DNA of 64,000 bases, taken from NCBI GenBank assembly GCA_903928015.1, contig CAIYPF010000034.1, positions 1 to 64,000 of the forward strand, given 5' to 3'. A model generated the notes under the pieces. It made no database searches. It had not been told where the DNA came from and was given only the letters and a program-made list of their open reading frames with translations. This document shows, one piece after another, positions 56,289-63,832 of the stretch. How positions within the stretch are numbered: the first letter of the stretch is position 1; each line of letters starts with the position of its first letter. Source of the stretch: an uncultured Gammaproteobacteria bacterium (lineage in GTDB: Bacteria; Pseudomonadota; Gammaproteobacteria; Pseudomonadales; UBA5518). The translations under genes and the position numbers were made by a program.

Positions 56289-57743
56289 ATGCATGACATC
56301 GCTCTCGAGGCCATCGCCGGCGCGCTGGAGCGGCGCGAGTTCTCCTCCGTCGAGATCACCTCGCACCTGCTCGAGCGCATCGAACGCGCCAACGGCACGC
56401 TGAACGCCTTCATCACCATCGATCGCGAGGGCGCGTTGCGCTCTGCCGCGGCCGCCGACGCGGCCCGGGCGGGAGGCGCCACCGGCCCGCTCCTCGGCGT
56501 ACCCATCGCCCACAAGGACCTCTTCTGCACTGCAGGGCTGCGCACCACCTGCGGCTCGCGCATGCTGGGCGAATTCGTGCCGCCCTACAGCGCCACCGTG
56601 GTCGAGCGCATGGCTGCGGCGGGCTGTGTGACGCTCGGCAAGACCAACATGGACGAGTTCGCCATGGGCTCGTCCAACGAGACCAGCTGGTTCGGACCCG
56701 TGCGCAATCCCTGGGATACCGCCCGGGTTCCGGGTGGATCATCGGGGGGTTCTGCTGCAGCGGTGGCCGCACGCCTCGCGCCCGGCGCTACCGCCACCGA
56801 CACCGGCGGCTCCATCCGCCAGCCCGCCTCGCTCTGCGGACTCACCGGGCTCAAAGCCACCTACGGGCGCGTCTCGCGCCACGGCATGATCGCTTTCGCC
56901 TCCAGTCTGGACCAGGCCGGACCCATCGCCCGCTCGGCGGCCGATTGTGCGCTGATGCTCCAGGCCATCGCGGGCTTCGACCCGCGCGACTCGACGTCCA
57001 TCGAGGCGCCAGTGCCGGACTACGTATCCCAGCTCGATCGCCCTCTCGCGGGCCTGCGGATCGGGGTGCCGAAGGAATACTTCGATCCGGGCCTGCACCC
57101 CGGCACCGAGGCCGCAGTGCGTCAGGGCCTCGCCGAACTGGAAGCGCAGGGCGCAAAACTGGTCGACGTCAGCCTGCCGCATTCGCCCCTTTCGGTACCC
57201 GCCTACTACGTGATCGCGCCCGCGGAATGTTCGGCGAACCTCTCGCGTTACGACGGCGTGCGATACGGCTATCGCTGCAAAGACCCGGTGGATCTGCGCG
57301 ATCTCTACGAGCGCAGCCGATCGGAGGGCTTCGGCGAGGAGGTCAAGCGCCGCATCATCGTCGGCACCTACGCGCTCTCCGCCGGCTACTACGACGCGTA
57401 CTACCGCAAGGCCCAGCAGATCCGCCGCCTGATCGCCGAAGACTTCCGCCAGGCCTTCGAGGTGGCGGACGTGATCGCCGGCCCTTCGGCACCGGCCACC
57501 GCTTTCCGCTTCGGCGAGAAGAGCAGCGACCCGATCACGATGTACCTCGAGGACATCTACACCATCGCCGCGAACCTTGCCGGCCTGCCGGCCATGTCGA
57601 TGCCGGGCGGTCTGGTCGATGGCCTGCCCGTGGGCATACAGCTGATCGGCAACCATCTGCAGGAGGGGCTGCTGCTGAACGTCGCGCACCGCTTCCAGCA
57701 GGCCACCGACTGGCACCGGCGCTCGCCGGGCTTCACGGCCTGA
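56289..57743 (+). CDS. gatA: aspartyl/glutamyl-tRNA amidotransferase subunit A
   Basis: 484 residues, an amidase-signature enzyme. The Ser-cisSer-Lys triad is complete: Lys76 (IAHKDLF), Ser151 (PGGSSGGS) and Ser175 ([11 protein letters not shown]). It releases ammonia from glutamine for transfer to the tRNA-bound amino acid. Presence of GatCAB suggests that asparaginyl- or glutaminyl-tRNA is made by the indirect route. Confidence 0.97.
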
Positions 57744-57760
57744 ACCCGGAGACGACACAG

Positions 57761-59215
57761 ATGCTTTCAGACTGGGAAACCGTGATCGGGCTCGAGGTGC
57801 ACGTGCAGCTCGCCACCCGCAGCAAGATCTTCTCGGGTGCCGCGACCCGCTTTGGCGCGGAGCCCAACACCCAGGCCTGCGCCGTCGACCTCGCGATGCC
57901 CGGCACGCTGCCGGTACTGAACCGCGAAGCCGTGCGCATGGCCGTGAAGTTCGGCCTCGCCATAGGCGCCGAGATCGCGTCAGTCTCGGTCTTCGACCGC
58001 AAGAACTACTTCTATCCGGATCTGCCCAAGGGCTACCAGATCAGCCAGCTCGACCACCCTGTCGTCGGCTGCGGTTCGGTGACAGTGGAGCTGCCTGACG
58101 GCAGCTCGAAGTGCATCGGAGTTACCCGCGCGCACCTCGAAGAAGACGCGGGCAAGTCGCTGCACGAGGACTTCCACGGCCTGACCGGCATCGATCTGAA
58201 CCGTGCCGGTACGCCGCTGCTCGAGATCGTCTCCGAGCCCGAGATACGCAGCGCCCAGGAGGCCGTGGCGTATCTGCGCCAGATCCACTCGATCATCCGT
58301 TACCTGGGGATTTCCGACGGCAACATGGCCGAGGGCTCGATGCGCTGCGACGTCAACCTCTCGTTGCGCCGTCATGGCCAGAGCGAGTTCGGCACCCGCT
58401 GCGAGATCAAGAACGTCAACTCCTTCCGCTTCGTCGAGAAGGCCATCGAGTGCGAGCGCGAGCGCCAGGCAGACATCCTGGAAGGCGGCGGCAAGATCAA
58501 ACAGGAGACGCGCCTCTACGACGCCGAGCGCAACGAGACCCGCTCCATGCGCAGCAAAGAAGTGGCGCACGACTACCGGTACTTCCCGGAGCCCGACCTG
58601 CTGCCGGTGCATGTGAGTGAGGAATTCATCGCCTCCGTCCGCGCCGAACTGCCCGAACTCCCTGCGCAGAAAGTGCAGCGCTTCCGCACGCAGTTCGGGC
58701 TGGGCGCCTACGATGCCGCGCAACTTGCTGCGAGCCGTGAACTGGCAGACTACTTCGAGGAGACCGCCGGCGCGACGGGCGACGCCAAGACAGCCGCCAA
58801 CTGGGTGCTCTCGGAACTGCTGGCGCGGCTGAACCGCGACGGTTTCGACGTGTCAGCCTCGCCGGTGCCTGCCGCATCGCTGGGCGCGCTGATCGCGCGC
58901 ATCCACGACAACACGATCTCGGGCAAGATCGCCAAGACCGTCTTCGAGGCCATGTGGGCCGGCGAAGGCGAGCCCGACGCCATCATCGACGCCCGCGGCC
59001 TGCGCCAGGTAGCCGATTCCGGCGCCATCGCGCAGTTGGTGGATGCGGCGCTGGCGGCGAACGCCGGGCAGGTAGAGCAGTACCGCGCCACGCCAGCCGA
59101 CAAGCGCCAGCGCATGTTCGGCTTCTTCGTGGGCCAGGTCATGAAGGCAAGCCAGGGCAAAGCCAATCCGCAGCAGGTGAACGACCTGCTGCGCGAGCGT
59201 CTCGACGGGGAGTAA
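57761..59215 (+). CDS. gatB: aspartyl/glutamyl-tRNA amidotransferase subunit B
   Basis: 484 residues from the ATG at 57761 with GGAG nine bases upstream. The kinase/transamidase core holds [28 protein letters not shown] and [11 protein letters not shown]; the C-terminal YqeY-like tail domain starts near residue 330. It phosphorylates the side-chain carboxylate of mischarged tRNA and then amidates it. It ends five bases before the next small gene. Confidence 0.97.
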
Positions 59216-59565: not shown

Positions 59566-60774
59566 TCAACGGCGGTGTTCGAGCATCTCCGGTCCGGGCT
59601 GGATGCAGGGCAGTTTCTGGCCGAGCAGTTGCTCGATGGGGCCCAGAAGAAAGGCATCGTCCTCACACGCGAAGCTGATGGACGTGCCAGAGGCCCCTGC
59701 GCGGCCGGTTCGGCCGATGCGGTGGACGTAGTCGTCAGGGTCTTCCGGCAGGGTGAAGTTGATGACGTGCGTCACGCCGTCGACGTGGATGCCACGCCCG
59801 GCCACGTCGGTGGCAACAAGCACGCGGTAGGCGCCACTGCGGAAGGCCTCCAGAGTCTTCAGCCGCTTCTGCTGCGGCACCTCGCCCGAGAGGATTCCGC
59901 AACTCACGCCCGCACGCTCAAGACGCTCGTGCAGACGCCGGACCTGATCGCGACGGTTGGCGAATACCATCACGCTCACCGCCTCGGGGCTGCGCAGCAC
60001 GTTCAGCAGCAGGTCGAGTTTCTTGCGCGACTCGACGATATAGACGATCTGGTCAACGTCCTTCGCGGCCACGCTCTGCGGCTCGATCTCGACGCGCACG
60101 GGCTCGTGGGTCCACTGGTCGGAGAGCCGAACCACCTCCTCCGTGAAGGTGGCGCTGAAAAACATGGTCTGGCGGTGCGTTCTCGCGGGGGTCGCGCGGA
60201 TGATGCGGCGTACCTGCGGGATGAAGCCCATGTCGAGCATGCGGTCGGCTTCGTCGATAACCAGCATTTCGATGCGGTCGAGGTGGATCTCGCGCTGGCT
60301 GTGGAAGTCCATGAGCCGGCCCGGCGTCGCGACCAGAATGTCGACGAAGCGGCGCGCAAGATCCTGCCGCTGGCGGTCGTAGTCCATGCCACCGATCAGC
60401 GTCACCACGTGGAAGCCGGTGTACTTGGCGAGGTCCTCGGCATCCTTGGCGATCTGCAGCACCAGTTCGCGCGTCGGCGCGATCACCAGCGCCCGCGGCT
60501 CGCCAGCATAGCGCGGCTCCTCGGGGGGATTGTTCAGCAGGTCGGTGAGGATGGTGAGCAGGAACGCGGCCGTTTTGCCCGTGCCGGTCTGTGCCTTGCC
60601 GATGCAGTCGTTGCCCGCCAGGGTGTAGGGCAGGACCTCCTGCTGGATGGGCGTGCAATGCGTGAAGCCAAGATCGTCGATCGCGCGGAGCAGAGGCTCG
60701 GGAAGGCCAAGCTGGCGAAAGCCCATGCGGGGGGGCTCGGTGGCCGGGCCGGTATCGGAAGGAATATCCTGCAT
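59566..60774 (-). CDS. rhlB: DEAD-box ATP-dependent RNA helicase RhlB
   Basis: 402 residues from the ATG at 60774 (a TTG one codon earlier is less likely). The Q motif [18 protein letters not shown] is followed by AQTGTGKT (61-68), [13 protein letters not shown] (174-177), SAT and [19 protein letters not shown] and the short C-terminus after [14 protein letters not shown] fit RhlB, the helicase that associates with RNase E. Rhl-type alternatives (RhlE) usually have long basic tails, absent here. The upstream gap contains a small dyad at 60797-60814. Confidence 0.88.
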
Positions 60775-60949
60775 CAATGCGTGCGTCCGTCGCGTTATAA
60801 GCGCCGCAGCTTATCCGCTGTGGGTACTCACGGCAAATAAAGGCAGCAAGCACTGCCCGGCACATGTGGCCAAGGCCCCACTCGTCCCCCTAGAATTCCC
60901 CGGAGTCAGCGGGCCCAGACCCACAACGGTCCCCGCCCACAGGGAAGCC

Positions 60950-63832
60950 ATGGCAGCCCCCACCCCACGACCGCGCAGCCGAGTGCTGCTGCTTTGCGAA
61001 GACCCGGTGCTGGTACAGCTCCTGCGCGGGCTGCTGCGTGCCCTGCCCGAGCCCTGGCCAGAGGCCGTCGTTCCCGAGCGCATCCCCGACGATATCCCGC
61101 TGGCCGCCGCCGGCTGCTCGCTGTGCTTGCTGGAGCCGGGCGCAGGTGGTGTCACGGTACCGAGGCTGCTGTCGCGGTTGCGGGCGGCAGCGCCGGGTTT
61201 GCGCGTGGCCGGCGTGTTGGGCGAATCGAGCCGGCACGGTGACCGTGCCGAGGTCATGCAATGGCTGCGCGACGGCATGAGCGATCTGCTCGTCGCACGG
61301 GAGCTCTCGGCAAACACTCTCGCCACCCTGCTTGGCCACGCCGCTCCGGCTCTTGTAGCGGCACTGCCGCAGGCCACCGCGATCAACCCGCTCGCAGCAC
61401 CCGCCGCCGCGCAAGGCTCCTGGCGCATCGCGCTAGTGGAGCAGCGCGCGAGCTTCGACGCCGACACGCTGGAGCGCCTCGGCTTCGGGCCCGGCGACAT
61501 CGGCAACACCATCGGCGACTGGAAATCCCTGCTGCACCACTCGGACCTCGATGTGCTGGTGAGCGCAGTGCAGTCTGCGCTGGACGGCAACACAGCCGCG
61601 GCACTCGAATACCGCCTGCGCCGGCGCACCGGTGGCTGGGTCGAGGTGCGGAGCACGGGCATCACCGTGGAAGCAGACACACACGGAGCACCGGTAGCGG
61701 TGACCGGGCGCTTCACCGACTGCGTCGCCGCGACCGATGCTTGGCAGCCCCAGTCACCTCTGGACACCGCGCCCGCCCGGGCCAGCGCAACGGAGCAGCC
61801 TGCCACGTCACCGGCGGCCAGCCAAAGCCCGGCAACCAGCAAAAGCCCTGCAGCCGAACCGGCTGCCCCTCTCGATACAGCGGCGGCGTCAGTTCCCCTC
61901 GCTGCGGACCACTCGCCGCCCGAGCCCCCACACGAAACAACCGCTCTCGCCAACCACGCACAAACCGCGATGCTGCGCTGCAGCCCGGACGCGGGCGGCG
62001 TGTTCCGTGTGCTGTGGCGCAACGCTTCCGCGGCGGGCGACACCGCCACCGCGGAGGCAACGTCGAGCAGGGCTTCGGACGTACTGCCAGCCTGCGACAA
62101 CTTCCGCCTCGAGGATGCCCTCACCCGGGTTCACGGCACCGGCATACCGGAACAGCACGATGCCTTGCTGCTGGAGCGCGCGGACCCTCCCGCCTGGCGC
62201 CGCTTCCAGCTGTGCCGCCTGCCCGATGGCGATGTGCTGCTCGAGGTGCAGGACATCAGCGAGCTGGTGCGCAGCCAGTCGGCGCGGCGCAGCCAGGACG
62301 AGCTCACCGGCGCGATCGTGCGCTCCTTGCCCGTTACCACACTGCTCGTCGATGAACGCGGCATGATCGAATACTGCATCTCTGCCTCGGGCGGGGTGCT
62401 GGCCGAGGCCACTCCCGGCATCGACGGCCGCCCGCTGGCGGCACTGCTCGGTGTGCGGGCGGGCGATGACTGCCTGCACCAGGTGACGCGGACGCTGAAC
62501 ACCAGCCGTCCTGGTCTGGTCACCCTGGAACTGGACACGCCCGGCGAACACCACTGGATCGAATGCCGCAGCACCCTGCTGCGCGGACGCCCTGGCACAG
62601 CACCGCGCGTGGTCCTTGCCTTGATCGACGTGAGCACGCGCGTGCAGGAAAGCCGTGAGGCACGGGCATCGAGCAGCCAGTTCAGGGCGGCGCTGCGCAG
62701 TCTTCCGGTTCCGCTCTACCTGAAAGACGTCGAGGGTCGCTACGCCGCACTGAACGGTGCCTTCGAACGGCTGCTCGGCGTGGAAGAGGGCATGCTCCTC
62801 GGCAAGACCGATGTCGAAGTGTTCCCCGATGAACTCGCCACCGAACTGCACGACAACGAACGCAGGCTGCAGTCAAGCGAGCAGGGATTTACCGAGTTGC
62901 GCACCGTCGGCGTGGGCGCGGCCCGCGCGCGGCGCTGGTGCTTCGAATTCCCGGTCCGCGCGAGCGACGGCAGCCAGCAGGGCTGGGGCGGCTTGTGGCT
63001 CTCGTCTGGTGACCTCCCGGCCGACTCGGGCGCTCCCGTGGTGGCAACACCCGAGCCCGAGTCCCTTCGCGCGCGCCGCCAGAAGGACCTCGACTCCGCC
63101 ACCGCCTCGGTGATCAATCGCGTCGAGGACGCGCTCACGGATTCCGGCGACTACGCCGACGTGCTGCGGCAACTGGAACAGCTTGTCGAGACCACCATGC
63201 AGGCGCAGGCCCTGATCCACCAGGTGGCGGGCCACGGCGAGGCCGCGAGCGCAAGGCCGCTGGTGGCCCTGGCGCCGCTCGCCCAGGAGATCATGGAGCT
63301 CGAGCGCATCCTCCTGCCCGCCTCCGCGCACTTCCAGAACGAGGTCGAACAGGGCCTGCCGCCGGCGCAGTGCGAGCCGGTGGCCTTCCACCAGATCCTC
63401 CTGCGCGGGATCCGTCACGCGCGCCGCGCACTGGGCGCCGAAGGCACGCTCTGCATCCGCCTGCGCCGCGCGAGCGGCGTGCGCCGCGCCTGCATCGCCT
63501 GCAGGGATGGATTCGAAGGTGCTTTCGTCGAGTTGGTGATAGAGGACTCGGACACGCAACTCGACGACGACGCTCTCGCCTTCCTCACCACGCCAGGCGC
63601 ACAGCGTCCGTCGGGAGGTGGCATCGATGACCTCGCAGAGGTGCTCGCGCTTTCGCACATACAGGGCGGCCACCTGCAGGTGCATCGCCTGGTACCCGGA
63701 GGCATCAGCCTGCATGTGTTCTTCCGGGCCGGTGATGCAACGGGCCTTGAAGGCCCCGGTGCGCGGGGGCGCTCCACCGTGATGCCCTTCCCGCTGGGGC
63801 GCAGCCAGATCCGCGGAACCCCCGCCGACTAG
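60950..63832 (+). CDS. multi-PAS protein with degenerate receiver-like and kinase-like domains
   Basis: 960 residues from the ATG at 60950 (AGGGAAG upstream), soluble. By my reading: receiver-like domain (10-130) with Glu62 at the phosphoacceptor Asp position; PAS-like folds at about 157-262, 340-440, 450-565 and 575-685, the last with LKDVEGRYAALNGAFERLLG; a Pro/Ala/Ser linker (263-340); a helical DHp-like part (705-765) without the HExxTP histidine; and an HATPase-like end (770-925). In that end the N box reads FHQILLRGIRHARRAL with no Asn, the G1 DxGxG becomes IEDSDTQLDDD, and G2 is SGGGIDDLAEVLALSHIQGG. It is probably a signalling scaffold or pseudokinase. The partner is unknown. Confidence 0.8.
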   Translation: MAAPTPRPRSRVLLLCEDPVLVQLLRGLLRALPEPWPEAVVPERIPDDIPLAAAGCSLCLLEPGAGGVTVPRLLSRLRAAAPGLRVAGVLGESSRHGDRAEVMQWLRDGMSDLLVARELSANTLATLLGHAAPALVAALPQATAINPLAAPAAAQGSWRIALVEQRASFDADTLERLGFGPGDIGNTIGDWKSLLHHSDLDVLVSAVQSALDGNTAAALEYRLRRRTGGWVEVRSTGITVEADTHGAPVAVTGRFTDCVAATDAWQPQSPLDTAPARASATEQPATSPAASQSPATSKSPAAEPAAPLDTAAASVPLAADHSPPEPPHETTALANHAQTAMLRCSPDAGGVFRVLWRNASAAGDTATAEATSSRASDVLPACDNFRLEDALTRVHGTGIPEQHDALLLERADPPAWRRFQLCRLPDGDVLLEVQDISELVRSQSARRSQDELTGAIVRSLPVTTLLVDERGMIEYCISASGGVLAEATPGIDGRPLAALLGVRAGDDCLHQVTRTLNTSRPGLVTLELDTPGEHHWIECRSTLLRGRPGTAPRVVLALIDVSTRVQESREARASSSQFRAALRSLPVPLYLKDVEGRYAALNGAFERLLGVEEGMLLGKTDVEVFPDELATELHDNERRLQSSEQGFTELRTVGVGAARARRWCFEFPVRASDGSQQGWGGLWLSSGDLPADSGAPVVATPEPESLRARRQKDLDSATASVINRVEDALTDSGDYADVLRQLEQLVETTMQAQALIHQVAGHGEAASARPLVALAPLAQEIMELERILLPASAHFQNEVEQGLPPAQCEPVAFHQILLRGIRHARRALGAEGTLCIRLRRASGVRRACIACRDGFEGAFVELVIEDSDTQLDDDALAFLTTPGAQRPSGGGIDDLAEVLALSHIQGGHLQVHRLVPGGISLHVFFRAGDATGLEGPGARGRSTVMPFPLGRSQIRGTPAD

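Follow-up and report, generated by a model that had tools for sequence, protein, structure and literature searches.

A predicted multi-PAS pseudo-histidine kinase family with a conserved CxxC/His site at one locus in three gammaproteobacterial families

The window, a 64,000-nucleotide stretch of DNA from an uncultured gammaproteobacterium, encodes a 960-residue protein that appears to represent a new family of pseudo-histidine kinases. In the window's lineage both the receiver and the kinase module are disabled as judged from their residues, and a CxxC/His site is kept. Since relatives at the same locus in three families are equally dead, this pseudokinase is probably a working signalling part, one that binds a partner rather than phosphorylating it. 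We think it likely that the protein is a soluble, stand-alone pseudo-histidine kinase which regulates its partner by stoichiometric contact, by analogy with DivL, RetS or NifL.

Reading frame and domain plan

The frame at 60950-63832 on the + strand runs through 960 codons with zero internal stops, which bears out the intact frame claimed from an earlier reading of the sequence alone (the sequence-only reading). An in-frame ATG also lies upstream at 60647; homology starts only at 60950. The same reading had described codon use as like that of the neighbours. This holds in that the values are similar, but the GC3 of the pseudokinase gene (0.82) is slightly lower than that of rhlB, gatA and mreB (0.85-0.87). 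Because this GC-rich DNA also has many long open antisense frames, we judged coding status by orthologues and dN/dS. The features discussed below are as follows.

56289..57743, + strand: gatA, upstream context
57773..59215, + strand: gatB (homologous part), upstream context
59566..60777, - strand: rhlB, divergent neighbour (NF002340 above cut-off)
60941..60945, + strand: possible ribosome-binding sequence AGGGA, 5-9 nt before the ATG at 60950
60950..63832, + strand: pseudo-histidine-kinase gene, 960 aa (ORF list, orthologues)
60971..61339, + strand: pseudo-receiver, residues 8-130 (profile match; model, alternating fold at about residues 11-129)
61133-61135, + strand: Glu62 at the phospho-Asp position (receiver alignment)
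61412..61723, + strand: PAS1, residues about 155-258 (Pfam PAS_3, model)
61730..61960, + strand: low-complexity Pro/Ala/Ser linker, residues 261-337 (pLDDT <50)
61961..62257, + strand: PAS2, residues about 338-436 (model)
62327..62629, + strand: PAS3, residues about 460-560 (model)
62678..63004, + strand: PAS4, residues about 577-685 (Pfam PAS_4, model)
63056..63232, + strand: dead DHp helices, residues 703-761 (joint alignment, model)
63083-63085, + strand: Lys712 where intact cousins carry His (joint alignment)
63251..63739, + strand: dead CA (GHKL-fold) domain, residues 768-930 (profile, model)
63416-63418, + strand: His823 at the N-box Asn position (joint alignment)
63491..63502, + strand: CxxC, C848-C851 (present in 19/19 readable copies)
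63545-63559, + strand: G1 remnant D866-S-D-T-Q870 (alignment)
63671-63673, + strand: H908 (present in 19/19 readable copies)

In the 960-residue protein Pfam recognised PAS domains only. No HisKA, HATPase_c or Response_reg domain was detected by Pfam in 19 family members at E ≤ 0.1; an intact cousin kinase gave matches to all three. NCBIfam returned sub-threshold kinase matches over the C-terminal part, for example to a VirA-like kinase (E 7.9e-7). No Pfam or NCBIfam family covers the whole protein, in line with the earlier remark that no named family fits. Weak Pfam matches in one to four members at E of about 0.01-0.1, among them V_cholerae_RfbT, Pertussis_S1 and RRM_occluded, were dismissed as chance. 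A role in anti-phage defence and an identity as a phage protein were dropped for want of a match in PADLOC and PHROGs, respectively.

The full-length model (mean pLDDT 69.8, pTM 0.30, so that overall domain packing is unsettled) contains a receiver-like alternating fold followed by four PAS folds, a pair of long helices and a sandwich of the CA type. The hybrid-sensor-kinase plan and the four PAS-like domains proposed from the sequence were thus both recovered, the latter by Pfam matches to PAS_3 and PAS/PAS_4 and by the four PAS-type folds of the model. Pfam found PAS_3 in six of 19 members, which is the number in the window's genus. The positions that do not vary among the three families are concentrated in PAS3 and PAS4; PAS4 carries most of them, and L516-N517-T518 of PAS3 is invariant in 19/19 copies. 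The best 19-residue hydropathy of the protein is 1.35, and no transmembrane-like stretch is predicted.

The dead transmitter and its CxxC/His site

The catalytic motifs of the kinase are lost throughout the family. The column of the DHp histidine, filled by Lys712 in the window protein, contains K, R, D, N, S or Q and a His in 0/20 copies, the cut copy G285 (Gln) included. In G002 and G003 the motif is so eroded that the placement of this column is uncertain, yet no His stands at or adjoining the position. The N-box Asn column contains H, Q, S, Y or L (His823 in the window) and an Asn in 0/20 copies. DxGxG is absent from all 19 readable copies, though the G1 Asp itself remains in the window (D866) and in seven of 19 copies overall, namely the six congeners and G051. 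All three losses had been called by the sequence-only reading. The F box and the G2 box with its glycines are unrecognisable in the family. Copy G285 ends at a contig edge before the CxxC and enters only the His and N-box counts; the C-terminal part of G008 lies in a second frame and was read apart. Since the stretch from G1 to GGH, which includes the lid, is nearly normal in length (40 residues in the window and 37-48 in the family versus 42 in intact kinases), it appears to be degenerate rather than deleted. The window protein lacks the residue signature of an active histidine kinase (His, N box, G1/F/G2), yet by sequence and model it is predicted to have a homologous DHp/CA fold.

This homology was evident from both profiles and predicted structure. 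When a profile of 18 family C-termini was compared with a profile built from nine intact kinases, hhalign aligned 232 columns at probability 100 (E 3.5e-42), and a CckA DHp-CA profile matched the dead transmitter with E 9.2e-10. Folded alone, the C-terminal part gave a mean pLDDT of 77.7, with lower values for the helices (50-67) and higher values for the CA domain. Foldseek with this model placed CckA first among the matches listed (3.0e-10), and the best structural matches of the C-terminal part among those listed include RetS, CckA, LvrB, ThkA and DivL (Z 17-18), with VIA Z scores of 18.3 for RetS, 18.2 for CckA and 16.9 for DivL. The concern raised earlier that the C-terminal part might not be HATPase-like did not materialise, since the part is HATPase-like by sequence profile and by modelled fold.

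In a tree of 39 DHp/CA rows the 19 dead copies grouped together against 20 intact kinase rows (support 94/91), and this branch was present in 92% of 200 bootstrap trees; the branches are long. Read most simply, kinase chemistry was lost once, before the three families separated, which is likely, not proven. The nearest intact relatives are CxxC-type PAS hybrid kinases from the order and class (e.g. L010, L168-L175), which share with the family the homologous DHp/CA, the CxxC and the GGH, but differ from it by keeping HDFNN, the N box and G2 (L169 has no DxGxG by pattern). None of those checked is the gene adjoining rhlB. A class-wide search with the family profile matched nine of 369 genomes at E ≤ 1e-45, the window's own and eight others. 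In these eight the matches span roughly profile positions 500-907, and their nine loci contain HDFNN and the G2 box in 9/9, DxGxG by pattern in 8/9 and CxxC in 8/9. On the sequence evidence, the protein descends from a PAS hybrid histidine kinase of the CxxC-bearing type.

In this class of intact kinases (L010, L013, L016, L017, L168-L175) the CxxC lies about 15 residues before the G1 box, and in four aligned intact CxxC kinases an HxxxxH at the GGH end of the CA domain accompanies it. Our literature search found no paper on a CxxC-bearing class of PAS hybrid kinases.

The conservation of this site in the dead copies raises the question of whether the CA remnant is kept as a metal or redox sensor, in which C848xxC851 and H903/H908 would bind metal or form a disulfide instead of binding nucleotide. 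C848, C851 and H908 are kept in 19/19 readable copies and H903 in 17/19, while the His, the N-box Asn and DxGxG are gone, and the counterparts of these four residues are all present in 4/4 intact kinases of the same alignment. G907 is kept in 19/19 as well. However, precisely because intact cousins carry the site too it may be structural, and position 903 is Gln or Asp in both f4 copies. We consider a sensor of this kind rather doubtful. It is likewise unlikely that this is a lineage-specific family in which a whole receiver-PAS-kinase relay lost its phosphotransfer chemistry and was converted into a soluble switch acting by allostery. In that reading the former ATP-binding domain would be retained for partner docking and for its CxxC/His site (metal or redox), and a two-component architecture would signal with no phosphate step in the protein.

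A different histidine, such as H757, might take a phosphoryl group from elsewhere, making the protein a phosphotransfer intermediary. H757 is invariant in the six congeners, and the excerpt of PMC5847659 discusses possible phosphotransfer by ATPase-less HisKA proteins for archaea. Against this, H757 is not kept in f4 or f12, and the phospho-His position itself has lost its His in 20/20 copies, which makes such an activity very improbable.

Receiver erosion, locus and selection

The N-terminal domain is modelled as five alternating strand-helix units. Its family profile matched intact receivers with a modest hhalign probability of 70.5 (E 3.9e-5) and solved receivers with E 2.8e-4 for CpxR. In the window the acidic pair E17-D18 is present, the phospho-Asp is replaced by Glu62, the Thr by Leu90, and the Lys is absent; by these residues the domain is predicted not to be phosphorylatable. 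The replacement of the Asp by Glu62 agrees with the earlier reading. In the receiver alignment, which comprises 18/20 copies (G206, whose N terminus is missing, and G285 were left out), the phospho-Asp site contains E in four congeners, S in two, S in G051, A in G008 and D in ten f12 copies. Since the site varies (E, S, A, D) among relatives, we rejected the idea that Glu62 is a fixed phosphomimic. The third receiver site (Thr/Ser) is filled in one of the 18 copies (Ser, G008).

Erosion took a different course in each family: the window's genus (family f1) lost both Asp and Lys, f12 receivers keep the Asp and lost the Lys, and f4 receivers have Ser or Ala for the Asp and keep the Lys within one position of its place. 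A coordinated loss of catalytic residues, as proposed in the sequence-only reading, therefore applies to the kinase, where the His and the N-box Asn are gone everywhere, but not to the receiver. The simplest reading is that the ancestral receiver had both Asp and Lys. The first 130 or so residues of an intact cousin in G020 (L010:1027-3465) resemble a receiver by eye, with no Pfam receiver match there; this start may reflect the ancestral layout.

Orthologues were found in 20/20 genomes examined of three families (window's genus 6/6, f4 2/2, f12 12/12); one congener is a lake-Erken metagenome bin of an uncultured gammaproteobacterium. In an order-wide search 20 of 390 genomes matched at E ≤ 6.7e-70, and the next best match (3.3e-40) was an intact kinase; a clear orthologue is absent from the 370 other order genomes. 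The family profile (E ≤ 1e-3, frames of ≥150 codons) found no match near rhlB in 40 genomes of 37 other families, some of these neighbourhoods ending at contig edges. The order and class profile searches and the rhlB loci thus yielded no orthologue with intact kinase motifs; the sequence-only reading had named a relative with intact motifs and the same partners as evidence against its proposal.

Gene order in the window is gatA, gatB, rhlB (reverse), the pseudokinase and trpC-trpD-trpG (reverse). The same trp genes follow in G001 and G005, and trpC followed by the contig end in G004. In G003, f4 and f12 the order is rhlB, pseudokinase, prmC-prfA-hemA, with moeB also in G003. Either rhlB or prmC-prfA-hemA adjoins the pseudokinase in 20/20 copies, one flank only being visible on the contig for G002 and the f12 copies G117, G206 and G285. 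This comparison of loci shows that the gene stayed at one locus after the kinase loss deduced above.

Behind trpG (L034:6264-11456 on contig C34, partly outside the window) come an ABC protein and an HlyD-like protein, together with a protein of 690 residues that ends in an adenylate-cyclase-like domain, all named by sequence reading and not by family search. A DoxX-like gene (L039:4763-5401) that matches the HvfX copper-RiPP maturation family adjoins rhlB in several families, some with the pseudokinase and some without it. As a partner, this DoxX/HvfX-like gene was dropped, since it takes the same position in families that have no pseudokinase.

Since dN/dS was obtained by simple counting, corrected with a single parameter, and the genes are GC-rich, we drew conclusions from close pairs only. 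In three close congener pairs (G000/G001, G004/G005 and G000/G004) dN/dS was 0.04-0.09 for the DHp and 0.08-0.11 for the CA domain. The PAS domains of these pairs gave 0.09-0.31 and the receiver 0.10-0.17; within G004/G005 the receiver value (0.099) was slightly under that of the CA domain (0.114). In two more distant pairs domain values were higher throughout (0.21-0.69) and the dead part was not lowest (G000/G003: DHp 0.69, CA 0.45; G002/G003: CA 0.36); dS is probably underestimated there.

These data bear on the possibility that the gene is a relic in decay. Such a reading could draw on the absence of catalytic residues from both receiver and kinase, and on a frame break in the G008 copy. 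This break, at or near a ten-A run (L041:8241-8310), separates a 593-codon frame (the PAS part) from a 301-codon frame (the dead transmitter), and could reflect either misassembly or a slippage site that yields two products. The other 19 of 20 copies have a single unbroken frame over the available part (G206 and G285 are cut at the contig end), the dead domains show low dN/dS among close congeners, and the gene is kept in 20/20 genomes of three families. A relic is therefore extremely improbable, and for the window's genus decay is refuted as far as sequence can do so. The sequence-only reading had favoured a real pseudokinase over random decay, and we reject random decay on the same low dN/dS and the universality in three families.

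Proposed working and known systems

With its homologous transmitter, lost functions and conservation, the family would belong to the broad class of pseudo-histidine kinases. In our proposal a putative dimer formed through the DHp would read a cytoplasmic signal with PAS3/PAS4 and pass the change into the DHp/CA unit, which would regulate a partner by binding it directly and stoichiometrically. That partner could be an active kinase, a response regulator or a transcription activator. The pseudo-receiver would serve as an additional docking or regulatory module, with no need for phosphorylation in the window's lineage. The scaffold role proposed earlier may also apply. Several observations count against this proposal: conservation among the families is strongest in PAS3/PAS4 and not on the DHp surface; the DHp helices are modelled at pLDDT of about 50-67 only, and the full-length packing at pTM 0.30; in the more distant congener pairs the dead domains are not the most constrained part; and the gene stands alone, flanked by housekeeping genes of opposite orientation. 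Searching the congeners for a partner kinase, we found near-CxxC-type kinases in G002 and G003 and no close one in G000, G001, G004 or G005, and no co-conserved partner was established among congeners.

The partner-contact reading has several precedents. Among the matches listed, the top structural match of the CA remnant is RetS from Pseudomonas (6dk8; Z 18.3, rmsd 2.0, 149 residues). RetS itself is membrane-bound, a hybrid kinase whose receivers lie at the C terminus. In contrast, the window protein is predicted to be soluble by hydropathy and has PAS input, an N-terminal pseudo-receiver and no C-terminal receiver. RetS inhibits another kinase, GacS, by contact, according to the excerpt of a review (PMC12189002). 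DivL, a pseudo-histidine kinase of Caulobacter, is described in the accessible part of PMC4211667 as lacking kinase and phosphatase activity and as sensing DivK~P via its dead transmitter and PAS domains. The family resembles DivL in having multiple PAS domains followed by DHp and CA, a replaced phospho-His and a CA fold that is kept (model Z 16.9 to 4q20). It differs in also having lost the N box, the glycines of G1 and the G2 box, in its N-terminal pseudo-receiver, and in the His position, where the same part of PMC4211667 gives a conserved Tyr for DivL and the family has K/R/D/N/S/Q, never Y. A laboratory-evolved pseudokinase form of ChrS alters signalling through its paralogue (excerpt of PMC9491836).

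The dead DHp/CA unit could also act as a NifL-type inhibitor that clamps a transcription factor (e.g. an AAA+ activator) with no two-component partner. As described in the accessible section of PMC12998174, NifL has PAS input and DHp/GHKL domains that are devoid of phosphotransfer and clamp NifA in stoichiometric inhibition, a likeness to the family, and the NifL-NifA complex ranked fourth among the matches listed in the full-length Foldseek search. This match is multi-domain and has a low TM (TMq 0.18, rmsd 37). Furthermore, no nifA-like or other activator gene adjoins the pseudokinase in any locus compared, and NifL inhibition depends on nucleotide status (same section of PMC12998174), whereas the nucleotide motifs are destroyed in the family. 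We regard this mechanism as unlikely. As far as sequence goes, any of the modes described (DivL, NifL, RetS or ChrS) may apply.

Pseudo-histidine kinases and pseudo-receivers are known classes, and the His is missing in about 0.9% of sampled HisKA domains, as stated in the excerpt of PMC12632262. In comparison with bacterial pseudo-receivers (PsR; CikA, ShkA), the domain here is N-terminal on a dead kinase, and its residue loss differs between families. Archaeal REC-(PAS)n-HisKA-HATPase proteins, of which the accessible text of PMC5847659 presents none as characterised experimentally, have the same domain order, but their HisKA and HATPase are still recognisable, unlike those of the bacterial family described here. 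We found no description of this family in the open-access literature searched.

Few bacterial pseudo-histidine kinases are understood. This family probably arose once, sits at a fixed locus, shows graded stages of decay in its receiver and is represented by many full-length copies, with both catalytic modules dead or dying. It thus lets one ask which kinase surfaces persist once catalysis is unneeded, and whether the CxxC/His site serves a non-catalytic role in the living cousins.
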